DNA from: a virus
DNA length: 48,523 nt
Virus record (IMG/VR): IMGVR_UViG_3300044701_000568
Span: 1-48,523 of that record
Strand: one strand, 5' to 3'
Below are positions 42,248 through 47,171 of this stretch, piece by piece; within the stretch, counting starts at the first letter, position 1; each line of letters begins with the position of its first letter. Position numbers and translations under genes: made by a program. The notes below the pieces were generated by a model, which saw only the letters and a list, made by a program, of their open reading frames with translations, was not told the origin of the DNA and made no database searches.

Positions 42248-42499
42248 TTATTTATCCTTTTTATTCTTTGCTTTCCAAGCAGTAGCATATGCGATTGACT
42301 TTTCCTTGTCGGATAGTCCATCCTTAGAGTAACCTTTCTTAATATGCTTCACCATTCTTTCATACTTTTTGCCGGGAGGTGCCTTCTCTTCAATAGGTTC
42401 TACTTCTTCTTTCTTAACAGATGCCTGCTTGATATACTTTTTGTGATCAGATGATGACTTTTTATATTCCGCAGAATTTTCGTTTGGAATATTAGGCAT
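42248..42499 (-). CDS. Lysine-rich small late protein
   Basis: 83 residues, very basic (YKKSSSDHKKYIKQASVKKE), ending YATAWKAKNKKDK, with an acidic-proline patch (EEVEPIEEKAPPGKK) in the middle. The WKxKN tail is common to small proteins of T4-like cyanophages. The ATG is preceded by GAGG at two bases, which is close. Its last codons contain the late promoter for the next gene. Not identified. Confidence 0.68.
   Translation of the reverse strand: MPNIPNENSAEYKKSSSDHKKYIKQASVKKEEVEPIEEKAPPGKKYERMVKHIKKGYSKDGLSDKEKSIAYATAWKAKNKKDK
42249..42255 (-). promoter_or_regulatory. Late promoter ATAAATA in a small palindrome
   Basis: ATAAATA on the minus strand within GGATAAATAATTATCC, an inverted repeat with GGATAA/TTATCC arms, at the 3' end of the 83-residue gene and 28 bases before the next ATG. 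Confidence 0.6.
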
Positions 42500-42507
42500 C
42501 ACCTCAA

Positions 42508-43230
42508 CTACTTTTTTGCTTCTTCAATCTCCTGACGAAGTTCTGCTTCTTCCTTCATTGCCTTCTTCTTATTGATGACGGCACTTACTTTCTTACGACG
42601 GGCATGTAGATACTTGTCAGACTTGTCATGATCACCATCGTTATCAATATCCTTATCTTCTTTACCTACAGGATCCATCTTCTCAGTGATGATCTCTTCA
42701 GCAAGAATTCTATCTGCGAAGTATTCAACATCCTCTTTCTTCATTGGAACGCACTTGTCCTTTCCATTCTCAGTGCCAGCATACTTATATCCTTTCCAGC
42801 AAGCCTTGCCGTCAGCACCTTTCTCTTTCTCAAGAACGAGAGTATAGTTATCAAACTCAATCTCATACATCTCTTTCTTCATCATCTTCTTCCAAGAAGA
42901 CTTCTTATCCATCTTCTCTCCCTTCCCTTCCTTCTCACCCTTGCCATGCTCAGGACCGCAAGATTCATCCATCTTCTTCTCGCACTTAGAGCAACCCTTA
43001 CCATGACAGGATTCACATTCTTTTTTGTATCCCTCTGCTGTTACGCCAGGAGCAGACTCCATGCCAACATACTTGGTGGGTTTTTTAATTTCTTTCTTTT
43101 TGAGAGTAGTATTCTCAATCTCTGCGCCATGAGATTGTGGATCCATTCCATCAAATACTTCTGCTACATCTACAGGTTTGCCAAGGAAACTTGACATAAG
43201 GGATTCAGTAAGAGCGTCTCTTTTTGCCAT
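42508..43230 (-). CDS. Late charged protein with zinc-knuckle-like motif
   Basis: 240 residues. Residues about 70-85 read KKECESCHGKGCSKCEKK, a DnaJ-type C-x2-C-x-G-x-G-C-x2-C zinc pattern. Further on CWKGYKYAGTENGKDKCVPM gives two more cysteines. The rest is Lys/Glu-rich with KEDKDIDNDGDHDKSDKYLH near the end. Highly charged, low-hydrophobic proteins of this kind in T4-like cyanophages may be prohead or scaffold components, but this is uncertain. A canonical late promoter lies 27 bases upstream. Confidence 0.7.
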   Translation of the reverse strand: MAKRDALTESLMSSFLGKPVDVAEVFDGMDPQSHGAEIENTTLKKKEIKKPTKYVGMESAPGVTAEGYKKECESCHGKGCSKCEKKMDESCGPEHGKGEKEGKGEKMDKKSSWKKMMKKEMYEIEFDNYTLVLEKEKGADGKACWKGYKYAGTENGKDKCVPMKKEDVEYFADRILAEEIITEKMDPVGKEDKDIDNDGDHDKSDKYLHARRKKVSAVINKKKAMKEEAELRQEIEEAKK

Positions 43231-43256: not shown

Positions 43257-43264
43257 TATTTATA
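43257..43264 (-). promoter_or_regulatory. T4-type late promoter TATAAATA
   Basis: Exact TATAAATA on the minus strand 27 bases before the ATG at 43230; it overlaps the stop region of the 67-residue gene. Confidence 0.82.
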
Positions 43265-43463
43265 CTTCTCGGATATCTTTAACCCAAGCGCGGAACATCT
43301 CTCCCTCCTCAGTGACAGCAATCACATAGTTAACTCCACTACGATGGATTGTTCCCGTTTGACCAGTCGTATTAGACATGATCACATCTCCCTCCTGAAA
43401 GATACCTTTGTGTCTGTATCTCTGGTGAGTTGATTCCTGTCTTAGTTGTTTAAAATTTTTCAT
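43260..43463 (-). CDS. Small conserved cyanophage protein, unknown function
   Basis: 67 residues. GDVIMSNTTGQTGTIHRSGVNYVIAVTEEGEMFRAW forms a small beta-barrel-like, KOW-type pattern (GDxV...G..G), common in T4-like cyanophages. Its ATG overlaps the stop of the NMNAT-like gene, so it is the last gene of the operon at 43260-47051. Confidence 0.78.
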   Translation of the reverse strand: MKNFKQLRQESTHQRYRHKGIFQEGDVIMSNTTGQTGTIHRSGVNYVIAVTEEGEMFRAWVKDIREV

Positions 43464-44011
43464 TTCAATCCCATTCCTTCCCTTACAGCGTTGTATAACG
43501 ATAAAGTATTTGCTTGTCCTAACGTTTTAGGAATACCTTTCCTAAAAGTAAGCAGATCCATTTCTTTTGCTGCTTCTCTCATCTTACTAGCAGACATACC
43601 AGTAGCACCAGGAGCATCAGGATCTCGTTCACCAGCAGATACAACTTCCAAGTGTCTATATGTATATTCAACACCATTATATCTACTAATTAAACTTTCA
43701 TATTCCGGAACTCTATCAGATCCAGCAATCAATGTCAAGTCTTCATATGTTCCTTGATATTTTTGAAGTAATTTTATGATAGTATTAATATCTTTATCAT
43801 AGATGATATGGTCTTTATATTGTGGAAACATAAGATGCATATATTGGACCTTTAAATCTGATGGCAATGGATCCGTTGGTTTTTTCTGAGTGTGCGACGG
43901 GTAGATAAAGTAGTCATCCCTCTTAGCAATTCTTGCTACCGCATCAATCAATTTTTCGTGACCGATTGTTGGAGGATTAAATCTACCCCAGGCAACTACT
44001 ACTCTGCTCAT
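43460..44011 (-). CDS. NMN-adenylyltransferase-like / cytidylyltransferase-like protein
   Basis: 183 residues. The N-terminal strand VVVAWGRFNPPTIGHEKLID is the nucleotidyltransferase GxFxPxTxGH motif, with I-G-H for nucleotide binding. Near the C-terminus GMSASKMREAAKEMD is the counterpart of the ISSTxxR motif. The family joins ATP or CTP to phosphate esters; NMN adenylyltransferases make NAD. The substrate cannot be told from the motifs. It follows the KWDG ligase-like gene with a one-base overlap (TAATG). Similar genes in cyanophages are sometimes called cytidylyltransferases. Confidence 0.82.
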   Translation of the reverse strand: MSRVVVAWGRFNPPTIGHEKLIDAVARIAKRDDYFIYPSHTQKKPTDPLPSDLKVQYMHLMFPQYKDHIIYDKDINTIIKLLQKYQGTYEDLTLIAGSDRVPEYESLISRYNGVEYTYRHLEVVSAGERDPDAPGATGMSASKMREAAKEMDLLTFRKGIPKTLGQANTLSLYNAVREGMGLK

Positions 44012-45222
44012 TAGTCTCCAGCAACCCAGTTCTTAGATACATTAAAGTTAGCAACGCTAAATGATAATCTATCCACTAACTTAACCGCATTGGTTCCATT
44101 GCTGATAGCAACATAACCTTCAGGAGCAGTTATCTTATATCCATCTTCAGTTCTAAGGTAAGTTCCAAACTGCTCACCCTTCTCAAGTTTACGAACAAAA
44201 AAGTTCTTAGCATTCTGTAATGTAGTATATAGTCCAACCGCCTTGAGTAAAGCAGTTTCATTTGATTCAATGAAATCTAATCCAGCGTATAACTTAGCGA
44301 GTTTAGCGGCTTTTGCTTTTGGTGTCTTAACTTTATCCGCTGCTTTCTTTACCTCATCTTGAAAATATTTCTTAAAGTCATCAACAAATTTCTTAGCACT
44401 ACTCACTCTTCGTCCCTGACGAACGTATGTGTTGAAATAAATTTTCAGTCTTGGTCCTACAGTCAGTTGATCGTTCTCTTCAATCTGCTTGGCAACTTCA
44501 TCTAAAAAATTTCCAGCAACACGAATAAGACTAGCTCCAGCAGTTTTCATTCGCATGAGTCTTTGCTTCTCTTGCTTTGTGATGAGAGTATCTTTTCCAA
44601 GTTGTCCAGTCTCAGCAGAGAGAACTAAAACATCTGGGCTTTTGTTTAACTTAGATATATCATATCCAAATGTAGCATTTAAATTTTCAACTGAGTTACC
44701 TTTATATGTGGTATGAAATACCACACCTATCTTTGCTCGCTTTGCTTTTTCATAAAATGGAGATCCTTCTGGAATAGCATATGTGATGGTATTAGGTTGA
44801 AATGTGATACATCTTTTACCATCAATGGTTTCGTATTTTTTGTCGTCAGTAAAAAGTAAATCTCCTTGAGCAACTCCTGTAATTCCAAGCGCAGGAAAAT
44901 ATTTTAAAGCATCCTTAAGTTTAGATACCAATCCAGGAGCATGTCCATGATTCCTATCAACATCCTCCGGAGTTATGTTTATTTTTGCGTCCTTATTAAA
45001 TACAGATTTTGTTCCCACAAAGAATTGATCTGTTCCAGGATACATACCACAAAATATAGCTGGAGCCCCATCCCATTTGGTTGTAATTTTAAAATTATTG
45101 TTTCCCTGTCCAGTAAAAGTTTTAGCAAGTAGATCTAAAAATTTAAACGCATCACTCGCACCTTGCTTACCATCAAGCAAGATACTATCTTCTAAATGTT
45201 CTAGGTGTGTGTTCTTACTCAT
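44011..45222 (-). CDS. Nucleotidyltransferase/ligase-like protein (KWDG motif)
   Basis: 403 residues. ITTKWDGAPAIF (K49-W-D-G52) has the K-x-D-G lysine motif I of DNA/RNA ligases and capping enzymes. Further blocks follow in the expected order: FFVGTKSVF, GVAQGDLLF (about 116-124, motif III-like) and IGVVFHTTYKG (about 165-175, motif IV-like, compare EGVV). The C-terminal half has no usual OB-fold motif that I can see. If active it would form a lysine-AMP intermediate. It starts in an ATGA overlap with the 610-residue gene and runs into the NMNAT-like gene. The motif assignment is visual; it could also be a non-catalytic relative. Confidence 0.65.
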   Translation of the reverse strand: MSKNTHLEHLEDSILLDGKQGASDAFKFLDLLAKTFTGQGNNNFKITTKWDGAPAIFCGMYPGTDQFFVGTKSVFNKDAKINITPEDVDRNHGHAPGLVSKLKDALKYFPALGITGVAQGDLLFTDDKKYETIDGKRCITFQPNTITYAIPEGSPFYEKAKRAKIGVVFHTTYKGNSVENLNATFGYDISKLNKSPDVLVLSAETGQLGKDTLITKQEKQRLMRMKTAGASLIRVAGNFLDEVAKQIEENDQLTVGPRLKIYFNTYVRQGRRVSSAKKFVDDFKKYFQDEVKKAADKVKTPKAKAAKLAKLYAGLDFIESNETALLKAVGLYTTLQNAKNFFVRKLEKGEQFGTYLRTEDGYKITAPEGYVAISNGTNAVKLVDRLSFSVANFNVSKNWVAGD

Positions 45223-47051
45223 CTTAGGACAGTTCTGATTCCCTTTACTTCCATTTTATTTTTTATTTGTTTATAAAATTGTTTAAAATCAGTCGTGATG
45301 AAAACTTGGAACTGAGGAGACGCAGTGATGGCCCCTTTATATCTTACCTCCAAATTTAACAAAGGAAGATTATCAAGTCTCATAGTGTAATACAATTTGG
45401 CAGCGGATGCCGTAGGTTCAAATGCTTGACTCTTACCATTCCAAGTTTCTAACACCATAGCACCAGGCTTCTTAATAGCACTAGGATTACCAATTGAGTT
45501 TATTCCCGAAGAAAACATAATATTAAAAATTTCTTTCATCAAAGCTGTGCTCTTTTCATCAACTTTTCCCACAACAATTTTTCCAGTTCTCTTATCAATA
45601 CTTCCCGTTCCAGTAATCAAACTAAAATAGAAGTGGGAATTTTTGACGTATTCGTTAATATCTAATCTAAAAGCAAGATCTAAAAATTCCCTAAAGTTAT
45701 TAGGGTCTGACATCACACGACGAAATACTTTATCTAAAGTTTCAAAGAAAAAATTATTGGGATATTTTGTTCCTCTATATTCTTTTCCTGTAAGTGAAGC
45801 ATTTTTATCATCTCCAGAGAGAGCATTGTTTAATTTAGTTTTCCAATCAGAAGCAGGTTTTGTGGGCCAGTTTGTTGGTTCTACATTATCACCTAATTTT
45901 TTTCCAGGAGGAAACAATGGAGGTGGTCCAAGTTTTACCATATAAACTTGCTTCCAAAAATTTTCTTCAGCAGTTTTCATCTCATTTTTTTCATTGCTCT
46001 GTGCTTTCAAATAAAGGTATCCAGCTTTTTGCTTACCACTTGCAGAAGCTTCACCAACCAAAGGTTTATTTAAAAGAGTTGGGTCATCATTCAAACCCGA
46101 TTTTTTCTTTAAAGATATTCCCCAGTAATATTCAACACTATCTTTAGTAAATTTTATAATTAAATCGGACGAATTGTATGCTTTAATTAATTGATCTTTA
46201 GTAGGATCTTTTCCTTGCAACCCAGCTCGCTTGAGTTCAGCGTCCCATTTAGAACCTGTTTGAAATACTTTATTCACATTAGCATTATTTTTTCTCATTA
46301 AAAAATTAACCCAGTTAGAGACAGAAAGTGCTTTTGCTAAATTTACAATATCTCCCTCAATTAATTTTGCTTCTTTGTTACTATGCCCTATAACTTGTGT
46401 ATAATTTGAATGAATTTCTTTAGTAATTTTATTAAGTGCTTCATTTCTATCAGCAACATTCATCGTATTGATGTTTGATACCGGAATAATTTTACCCATA
46501 GCAATCAAAGTTCCAGTCATCAATTCATGAGGATCTCCTTTATCCGATGTAAGACCCTTCGCATAGATCACAAAAAGATTGATTGGACTACCTTCTATAT
46601 TTCCATCTTCATTGTATTTAAATGCTCTCAAATAAATTGTGTTTGCTCCGTCAGAGTAAGATGCGTTTCTAGTAAAAGCCCAATCTTCAACAACAACATT
46701 CATTAAATTCATCGCAAAGTATGACTGATATTCTAGTCTAATACTTTCCAAGTGTGGTCCCATAGCATTCCACACTTTACTCAATACATTATTTCTCTGA
46801 TTGTTATTGTGAACAGTTATTTTTAATCCGTATCCAGACTTTTCCAACTTCCCAACAGACCTATTGTTATCTACTGGATGAGTATAGGCAAAATCATCAT
46901 CAGATAAACCACTATTGTGTTGAGAAATTACTTTAGCAATATCAATTCTCTCAGCAATAATTTTAGATTGTCTCTCGTAAAATTTTTTGGCAACATCCGA
47001 TGATGGACTTATTTTCCCGACATTATTTCTAGTAAGTTTTTTTACTGCCAT
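45219..47051 (-). CDS. Large late protein of unknown function, possible nuclease
   Basis: 610 residues beginning MAVKKLTRNNVGKISPSS; the in-frame extension to 47165 is only tRNA-Ser read as protein. Near residues 270-350, TGSKWDAELKRAG, SSDLIIKFTKDSVEYYWGISLKKKSG and DPTLLNKPLVG recall a PD-(D/E)XK arrangement (Asp, then a strand with S-L-K-K-K), so a nuclease is possible. The rest is not recognised. A late promoter (47077-47084) lies 26 bases upstream. It is the first gene of a four-gene operon with the KWDG protein and the NMNAT-like protein. Confidence 0.75.
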   Translation of the reverse strand: MAVKKLTRNNVGKISPSSDVAKKFYERQSKIIAERIDIAKVISQHNSGLSDDDFAYTHPVDNNRSVGKLEKSGYGLKITVHNNNQRNNVLSKVWNAMGPHLESIRLEYQSYFAMNLMNVVVEDWAFTRNASYSDGANTIYLRAFKYNEDGNIEGSPINLFVIYAKGLTSDKGDPHELMTGTLIAMGKIIPVSNINTMNVADRNEALNKITKEIHSNYTQVIGHSNKEAKLIEGDIVNLAKALSVSNWVNFLMRKNNANVNKVFQTGSKWDAELKRAGLQGKDPTKDQLIKAYNSSDLIIKFTKDSVEYYWGISLKKKSGLNDDPTLLNKPLVGEASASGKQKAGYLYLKAQSNEKNEMKTAEENFWKQVYMVKLGPPPLFPPGKKLGDNVEPTNWPTKPASDWKTKLNNALSGDDKNASLTGKEYRGTKYPNNFFFETLDKVFRRVMSDPNNFREFLDLAFRLDINEYVKNSHFYFSLITGTGSIDKRTGKIVVGKVDEKSTALMKEIFNIMFSSGINSIGNPSAIKKPGAMVLETWNGKSQAFEPTASAAKLYYTMRLDNLPLLNLEVRYKGAITASPQFQVFITTDFKQFYKQIKNKMEVKGIRTVLR

Positions 47052-47076: not shown

Positions 47077-47084
47077 TATTTATT
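47077..47084 (-). promoter_or_regulatory. Late promoter AATAAATA
   Basis: AATAAATA on the minus strand 26 bases before the ATG at 47051, immediately after tRNA-Ser. Confidence 0.65.
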
Positions 47085-47087
47085 AAG

Positions 47088-47171
47088 CGGAAAGGGTGGG
47101 ATTTGAACCCACGGTGCTACTAACACGGCAGTTTTCAAGACTGCTGCCATAAACCACTCGGCCACCTTTCC
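47088..47171 (-). tRNA. tRNA-Ser (anticodon UGA)
   Basis: An 84-base class II tRNA on the minus strand: acceptor GGAAAGG/CCTTTCC, anticodon loop CTTGAAA giving UGA, long variable arm, T-loop GGTTCAAATCC, discriminator G. CCA is not encoded. Confidence 0.95.

Follow-up and report, generated by a model that had tools for sequence, protein, structure and literature searches.

Phage RNA-repair gene sets comprise, according to the available part of PMC7824862, an ATP-grasp RNA ligase, the nucleotidyltransferase RlaP of the DNA polymerase beta (pol-beta) type and a polynucleotide kinase (PNK), with some RNA ligases joined to a nuclease. The internal proteins IPI, IPII and IPIII and the Alt protein of bacteriophage T4 carry an N-terminal capsid-targeting sequence. 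A protein needs no more than the first ten residues of this sequence to be packaged; positions 4 and 7 are assigned to targeting and positions 8 and 10 to processing, and a protein changed at residue 10 can be targeted but not processed (available text of PMC9026906); the T4 prohead protease gp21 is described, in the text available, as cleaving after L/I-x-E. Here we analyze a locus of four overlapping genes on a contig of a T4-like cyanophage, the IMG/VR record IMGVR_UViG_3300044701_000568 (positions 1 to 48,523; this whole stretch of 48,523 nucleotides is called the window). All four genes lie on the minus strand at 43260-47051 and encode proteins of 610, 403, 183 and 67 residues, the second of which belongs to the family DUF6267. 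We propose that the locus is a nucleic-acid end-processing module whose members, in much of the family, are loaded into the capsid, and give this reading a probability of about 0.5.

DUF6267 is like T4 RNA ligase 2, the Naegleria RNA ligase and the trypanosome editing ligase in its predicted adenylation-domain fold and in the order KxDG, acidic motif III, EGxV and K; unlike them, it has a helical insert before EGxV, no domain after motif V and D in motif III, and it shares no detectable sequence similarity with these enzymes. The 610-residue protein is like HinP1I and MspI in predicted fold (residues 172-596) and in the D...xK arrangement, and differs in its size of about 600 residues, an extra N-terminal domain and the lack of a methyltransferase among the operon genes. 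The DUF6267 loci resemble the phage RNA-repair sets in that kinases and nucleotidyltransferases accompany a protein of RNA-ligase fold, whereas capsid loading is not mentioned in the available part of PMC7824862. The tags of the relatives (9-12 residues, aromatic at positions 4 and 7, aliphatic at 8, E10) and their variable cargo are similar to those of the T4 internal proteins; in contrast to the latter, the cargo here consists of nucleic-acid- and nucleotide-processing enzymes, and the enzymes of the window are themselves untagged. Finally, cytidyltransferase-like proteins, also termed nicotinamide mononucleotide adenylyltransferase (NMNAT)-like, have been reported in virions of the cyanophages S-CBWM1, S-SZBM1, S-SCSM1 and S-CREM2. 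They are of the same kind as the 183-residue transferase, and those reports, in their available parts, mention neither a targeting sequence nor a partner of ligase or nuclease type. The parts of the locus fit a known kind of RNA-repair system; new are the DUF6267 family and the capsid-targeted forms.

The features of the locus, with pLDDT denoting the predicted local distance difference test score, are as follows.

45219-47051, minus strand: 610-residue protein with a predicted HinP1I/MspI-like PD-(D/E)xK (here D...SxK) nuclease fold at residues 172-596; model pLDDT 90.1
46104-46166, minus strand: codons of the D296-K316 core (D...GISLKK); D296, S313 and K315 invariant in 31/31 sequences
44011-45222, minus strand: 403-residue DUF6267 protein (Pfam PF19782, E 1.9e-128) with a predicted RNA-ligase-like nucleotidyltransferase fold and an inserted helical domain at about 216-348
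45076-45078, minus strand: codon of K49, the candidate adenylated lysine (motif I, KWDGAP)
44110-44121, minus strand: codons of E368-V371 (EGxV, motif IV-like)
44080-44082, minus strand: codon of K381 (motif V-like)
43460-44011, minus strand: 183-residue nucleotidyltransferase of the HIGH superfamily (cytidyltransferase/NMNAT-like; PF01467, E 4.4e-7; phrog_3041, E 2.8e-55), no tag in this copy
43958-43987, minus strand: codons of GRFNPPTIGH, a HIGH-type motif as read from the sequence
43260-43463, minus strand: 67-residue protein, a separate C-terminal domain of the transferase (phrog_4808, E 3.9e-31; phrog_395, E 9.8e-12)

Predicted ligase fold of DUF6267

The structure of the DUF6267 protein was predicted from 46 sequences with a mean pLDDT of 88. 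In a DALI-like structural comparison (VIA), the top match of the model was the Naegleria RNA ligase 6vt0 (Z 10.0, 182 residues, 3.8 Å), and further matches were T4 Rnl2 (1s68, Z 8.7), trypanosome REL1 (8.6) and T4 Rnl1 (8.0). All 50 VIA matches listed are covalent nucleotidyl-transfer ligases, with RNA ligases ranking above DNA ligases. VIA scores with Z below 8 may reflect a common arrangement and helical models score high; for DUF6267, the top matches reach 8-10 and lie within one superfamily. Foldseek against the PDB gave weak and mixed matches among which ligases recur. The fold verdicts given here and below cover the families present in a second look at the PDB.

The alignment consists of the window protein, which replaces the identical L007, and 49 of the 53 representatives (L084, L172 and L176 were left out); the structure prediction used the same 50 sequences minus L002-L005. 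With relatives that share 32-71% identity with the window protein, K49, D51, G52, Q119, D121, E368, G369, V371 and K381 are invariant in all 50. We take these residues to correspond to the ligase motifs I, III, IV and V. The initial annotation had pointed to a K-x-D-G lysine and ordered ligase-like blocks, and had left the fold to be checked by structure; the lysine is K49 in KWDGAP, the blocks I, IV and V occur in order and without variation, and RNA ligases head the VIA matches. The inserted helical domain of about 130 residues lies before the EGxV motif, and short DUF6267 forms of about 300 residues lack most of it.

Judging from the model, the ligase fold is highly probable and ligase activity is moderately favored; we conclude that the protein has a nucleotidyltransferase fold of the ligase type, its chemistry being likely intact. 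RNA, rather than DNA, would have an even chance of being the main substrate. DUF6267 is present in 466 of 50,697 phage records, 60 of which are listed individually, nearly all of them from abundant marine phages. A literature search, with most subscription papers outside its reach, found no paper using the name of the family. A PADLOC match of DUF6267 (E 0.009) was single, weak and partial and was disregarded.

A variable slot for predicted nucleases upstream of DUF6267

Residues 172-596 of the 610-residue model match HinP1I (Z 8.6), MspI (6.4) and the Dna2 nuclease (5.4) in VIA, and Foldseek against 1ynm gave a TMt of 0.48. In the alignment of the window protein with 30 of 33 representatives (L002, L007 and L250 were left out), E176, D296, S313, L314, K315 and K316 are unchanged in all 31 sequences. 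The PD-(D/E)XK-like stretch recognized at the outset corresponds to D296...S313-L-K315 within the predicted HinP1I-like fold. Serine stands here in place of D/E in (D/E)-x-K, a type of change that we take to occur in the PD-(D/E)xK superfamily; in HinP1I and MspI the corresponding residue is presumably E, Q or N. Residues 8-171 resemble in fold both nucleotidyltransferases of the pol-beta type (GLD-2, Z 6.7) and small alarmone synthetases, and no intact catalytic signature is visible there by eye. PADLOC found nothing for the 610- and 183-residue proteins. On the predicted structure, a restriction-type nuclease fold can be assigned with high confidence, and nuclease activity appears reasonably probable.

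The gene upstream of DUF6267 was identifiable in 151 loci, with 115 in one loose BLAST cluster, eight in the cluster of the 610-residue protein and the remainder in small groups. An invariant skeleton of E, D and SxK is common to two large upstream families and a third: it comprises E113 (72/72), D214 (73/73), S260 (75/75) and K262 (75/75) in family 1, and E108, D206, S220 and K222 (each 10/10) in family 3. Profile-profile comparison of 21 upstream groups at a probability of at least 80 joined only {0,3,10,15}, {2,4,14} and {6,11}, and families 0 and 1, which are the largest, stayed apart (3.3%). Of 139 upstream genes, a simple search for the core motif picked up 69, and of the 52 representatives left after clustering at 45%, 21; among 501 control open reading frames (ORFs), three matched. 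About half of the upstream genes are left unproven as nucleases by this search, L159 has no such core by eye, and no recognizable upstream nuclease was found in S-PM2, S-SSM7 and P-SSM5. Thus many phages, though not all of them, seem to have a fast-evolving predicted nuclease of the restriction type in the slot before DUF6267.

The transferase, its small domain and the gene neighborhood

The 183-residue protein had been described as NMNAT-like. Its membership in the HIGH superfamily stands, PF01467 being the only model that passes, but an NMNAT identity is not supported, since the NMNAT model TIGR00482 scores 22.3 bits against a cut-off of 112.45. Its GRFNPPTIGH sequence is presumably the HIGH-type motif. 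The label KOW-like, originally attached to the 67-residue protein, received no support from a Pfam scan; the protein matches phrog_4808 and phrog_395. In phrog_395 and many relatives the 67-residue domain is fused to the cytidyltransferase. Despite being the C-terminal domain of the transferase, this family bears the label NrdB or ribonucleotide reductase alpha subunit in PHROGs and in several records.

A phmmer search over 176 DUF6267 loci, many of which are contig ends, detected the 183-residue family in 139, the 67-residue family in 103 and the 610-residue family in eight; the counts for the small genes are taken from phmmer, iterated profiles being mixed by fusions. In S-PM2, DUF6267 and the transferase form one reading frame, interrupted in an older record. 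The fusion supports the possibility that the predicted ligase-fold protein and the transferase act jointly. In other lineages, DUF6267 is followed by an adenylate kinase (PF00406, E 1.8e-40) or a kinase of the Zeta/AAA_33 type (E 1.2e-11), and in some by a larger protein in which a kinase of this kind and the transferase are combined and which contains a pol-beta-like stretch, recognized by eye. These kinases, as neighbors of a repair type, speak for the end-processing reading. The expectation that the genes are kept together holds for the transferase and fails for the nuclease of the 610-residue type. That the exact four-gene set, put forward as a candidate new system, is a fixed one is not supported: nuclease families with little or no relationship to the 610-residue type mostly take its place, S-PM2 lacks a gene of this kind, and lone DUF6267 genes exist in some phages. 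The window operon showed no PNK-HAD, RtcB or 2H enzyme.

Capsid-targeting sequences in relatives

The T4 proteins ipII and ipIII begin with MKTYQEFIAEA. The core is recognizable in 163 DUF6267 proteins; its histidine is preceded by exactly 14 residues in 42 of them and by five, the length class of the window protein, in 79. In 29 distinct ten-residue extensions, F4 occurs in 25, F or Y at position 7 in 25, L or I at position 8 in 24 and E10 in 20; these conserved positions are the ones that T4 genetics assigns to targeting and processing. A T4-anchored pattern, which replaced an earlier targeting-pattern scan, matched distinct N-termini of DUF6267 (25/64), the transferase (21/70), the adenylate-kinase-like proteins (10/17) and the Zeta-like proteins (3/15), compared with 11/368 for other downstream genes, 3/99 for upstream nucleases and 1/576 for the background. 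The pattern was fixed after the N-termini of the families had been seen, so that the family counts are partly post hoc; the S-CREM2 test described below used it unchanged. Since unrelated proteins share the tag, it is not explained by common descent of whole genes.

In Melnitz-1, the adjacent nuclease (MQGFKTFLSEA) and DUF6267 (MINFSKYITED) are both tagged. The pattern matches 6 of 217 ORFs of this phage, and the matches include, besides these two, genes annotated as DNA polymerase (a clamp loader by its look) and a baseplate-like gene; hence single matches are not proof. The 67-residue protein of the window matches the targeting sequence by half with its N-terminus MKNFKQLRQES. It and its relatives, which start with MKSLKELLQQS, MKSFKEVFEQS and MKDFKEIKKAA, have K2 and F/L4 but mostly not the processing site. 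Because T4 proteins changed at residue 10 can still be targeted, one may speculate that this domain carries the transferase into the head. For the tagged relatives, we consider packaging into the capsid quite probable. In a literature search, no paper turned up that describes ligases or nucleases with such a tag from these phages, judging by titles and the openings of abstracts, with most subscription papers outside its reach.

Comparison with virion proteomes

The transferase was reported, in the available parts of the respective papers, in virions of S-SM1 (PMC3037559), S-SZBM1 (PMC9146016, Table 1) and S-CREM2 (PMC10665884, Table 3). All three copies are tagged (MKKFSAFLNEA, MRFRQFIIEA and MKNFSSFLTEA, respectively). 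In S-PM2, whose transferase follows an untagged DUF6267 within one fusion, GC190 was not detected in virions (PMC3037559, as available). In S-CREM2, the pattern occurs in 5 of 52 virion proteins (ORFs 6, 13, 14, 136 and 154) versus 1 of 173 other ORFs (Fisher test, 0.003), the detected set being judged at annotated starts, whereas for the other ORFs all starts in a span of 30 codons were allowed, a difference that biases the test against the result. The published proteomes are thus in agreement with a tag that also functions in phages other than T4. Among the cyanophage isolates examined, the transferase is the only member of the module that keeps the tag.

Further proteins both tagged and detected in S-CREM2 virions are an S-adenosylmethionine hydrolase, a 78-residue protein, an APH-like kinase and ORF136 (L269 3837-5081, 10310-10546 and 10579-12846; L271 7301-8014). 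The Cas9-like virion protein ORF12 of the same phage has LRFASFMAEA after about 16 residues, perhaps owing to a misplaced start.

Organization of the locus

From high to low coordinates, the minus strand carries the end of the gp41 helicase gene, MazG, tRNA-Ser, the 610-, 403-, 183- and 67-residue genes and then a 240-residue gene. The four overlapping genes noted initially are confirmed as ORFs, with successive overlaps of 4, 1 and 4 bases (ATGA, TAATG, ATGA). The tRNA-Ser(TGA) gene at 47087-47171 sits between MazG and the 610-residue gene. As the alternative GTG-start reading of 648 residues overlaps this tRNA gene, the ATG at 47051 is likely the true start. Another T4-like cyanophage contig, IMGVR_UViG_3300047510_001256, is identical to the window over the 403-residue gene. 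Two further features adjoin the locus.

43257-43264, minus strand: T4-late-type promoter element, exact TATAAATA, upstream of the 240-residue gene and not of the 610-residue gene
42508-43230, minus strand: 240-residue protein rich in lysine and glutamate, in the next transcription unit (phrog_4359, E 2.9e-43)

One late promoter had been proposed for the four genes. The exact element precedes the 240-residue gene instead, and the sole late-type element before the 610-residue gene is AATAAATA at 47084. Because this element has one mismatch and belongs to a class of 56 such elements on the same strand of the window, a common late promoter of the four genes is plausible and no stronger claim is made. 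The positional counterpart of the 240-residue protein, S-SZBM1_139, was detected in S-SZBM1 virions (available part of PMC9146016).

Late proteins of these phages that otherwise differ from one another share an acidic short motif resembling DKDIDNDGDHDKSDKYLHARRKK (window 42508-43230, L260 10560-11126 and L261 6922-8343), possibly a core-binding or scaffold element. The 84-residue protein at 42248-42502 of the window matches only parts of phrog_30733 and phrog_12887, and its C-terminal end, YSKDGLSDKEKSIAYATAWKAKNKK, looks like a modular tail motif.

Proposed function and alternatives

If the locus is an end-processing module, DUF6267 would adenylate itself on K49 with ATP and pass the AMP to 5'-phosphate ends, sealing broken RNA, with tRNA as the first candidate, or nicked DNA. 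The transferase would work as its partner, as the S-PM2 fusion suggests, and the hypervariable nuclease would be a metal-dependent enzyme cutting non-phage DNA, either of the host or of a competitor; nuclease and ligase may serve one task. Tagged members would be loaded into the head via the T4-type N-terminal sequence, lose the tag to the prohead protease and be ejected into the next cell, where attack and repair could begin before phage gene expression. In the phage of the window, with its three large proteins untagged, these probably act in the producing cell, or via the half-tagged 67-residue protein.

Several results weigh against this proposal. Foldseek alone gave no match in the PDB at E 0.001 for the DUF6267 and 610-residue models. 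In Pfam searches at E up to 10, no ligase family appeared for the 50 DUF6267 sequences among the families listed (25 of 53), and no nuclease family for the 31 nuclease sequences among all 21 listed. Sequence searches of the PDB, which distant relatives can escape, matched no known enzyme for DUF6267, and gave no nuclease match for the 610-residue protein. At the motif III position, assigned by order and fold only, DUF6267 has D121 where RNA ligases presumably have E, and what we take to be its motif V contains one lysine (K381) plus R385. The window operon encodes no PNK, phosphatase or recognizable active pol-beta enzyme. Most DUF6267 proteins are without the tag, 88 of 163 having at most five residues before the core, and in HTVC008M none of 204 ORFs matches the full pattern, with shortened variants only. 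In the window, the pattern has no match at the 610-, 403- and 183-residue genes, and packaging is therefore a statement about the relatives and not about the phage of the window. Among the 30 virion proteins of S-SZBM1 the untagged DUF6267 and the untagged upstream nuclease are absent (PMC9146016, available part), as is the untagged DUF6267 among the 52 of S-CREM2 (PMC10665884, available part); a DUF6267 protein has so far not turned up in any virion set checked, the cases examined being all untagged. The authors of two proteomes also warn, in the text available, that such enzymes might be contaminants.

The untagged copies in the window would fit a set that acts only in the producing cell, handling ends or branches of the phage DNA ahead of packaging or while it proceeds, with the tags of relatives being incidental. 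The neighboring replication genes gp41 and gp61 and head proteins fit this as well, but the tag is far above background in at least four unrelated enzyme families, the transferase is present in three virion proteomes, and hypervariability is not expected of a packaging nuclease. We regard this explanation as unlikely; in the relatives, a capsid tag accounts for the "late" timing better than does end processing before packaging, one of the roles suggested in the initial annotation. Still less likely is an economy of nicotinamide adenine dinucleotide (NAD) and AMP, in which the transferase would be a true NMNAT restoring NAD during infection or against NAD-depleting defense, and DUF6267 would perform an accessory transfer of AMP, for instance onto a protein, and be no polynucleotide ligase. 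The match of the 183-residue protein to the HIGH superfamily, the NMNAT-like designation of the virion copies in the available text of the cyanophage papers, the adenylate kinase adjoining DUF6267 in relatives and the fusion of the ligase fold to the transferase in S-PM2 are all compatible with it. Nevertheless, the NMNAT models fall far under the cut-off (22.3 versus 112 bits), polynucleotide ligases come nearest to DUF6267 in fold among the matches listed, with RNA ligases standing above DNA ligases, and the nuclease is left unexplained.

A purely structural role of DUF6267 and the nuclease-fold protein in head assembly, both being inactive, is improbable: in these families, which diverge strongly elsewhere, conservation is highest at the residues of catalytic type, even though the late-gene surroundings with head proteins and a loading into the prohead core like that of T4 internal proteins would suit such a role. 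The least credible alternative holds that the variable nuclease distinguishes self from non-self as a restriction enzyme, the phage being protected by the absence of the recognition site from its own genome. The phages do show a strong and phage-specific lack of four-base palindromes. In the window, GTAC occurs 17 times versus 132 expected, GGCC 10 versus 27 and TCGA 31 versus 76; CGCG and TCGA are nearly absent from HTVC008M, and CGCG and GATC from Melnitz; related phages lack other palindromes, mostly CCGG, which is not avoided in the window. However, avoidance tracks phage relatedness (7381 pairs, 122 loci). Pairs with DUF6267 82-90% identical have a mean avoidance correlation of 0.74 with unrelated nucleases (82 pairs) versus 0.82 with similar ones (59 pairs), and 17 GTAC sites remain in the window. 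At 50-75% relatedness, the values are 0.42 for partly similar nucleases versus 0.23, and a small effect is possible. Site loss as self-immunity to the nuclease is thus not supported, avoidance following the lineage and not the nuclease over the 122 loci. Melnitz-1, in whose genome CGCG and GATC hardly occur, has a gene annotated as an HhaI-type methylase at L262 2758-3975.

Implications

Extending the end-processing module beyond this locus, we tentatively suggest that Kyanoviridae capsids may carry an exchangeable kit of a hypervariable nuclease, a DUF6267 sealing enzyme, transferases and kinases. This kit would be ejected with the DNA, attacking foreign DNA and repairing RNA or DNA before phage expression, and the T4-type peptide would move between unrelated genes. 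The predicted ligase fold gives DUF6267, a family previously without function, a testable one. The signature of the targeting peptide offers a sequence test for injected proteins of marine phages, which could previously be approached by proteomics with its doubts about contamination. Finally, the tags of the relatives suggest that some phages inject a kit for cutting and repairing nucleic acids together with their DNA.

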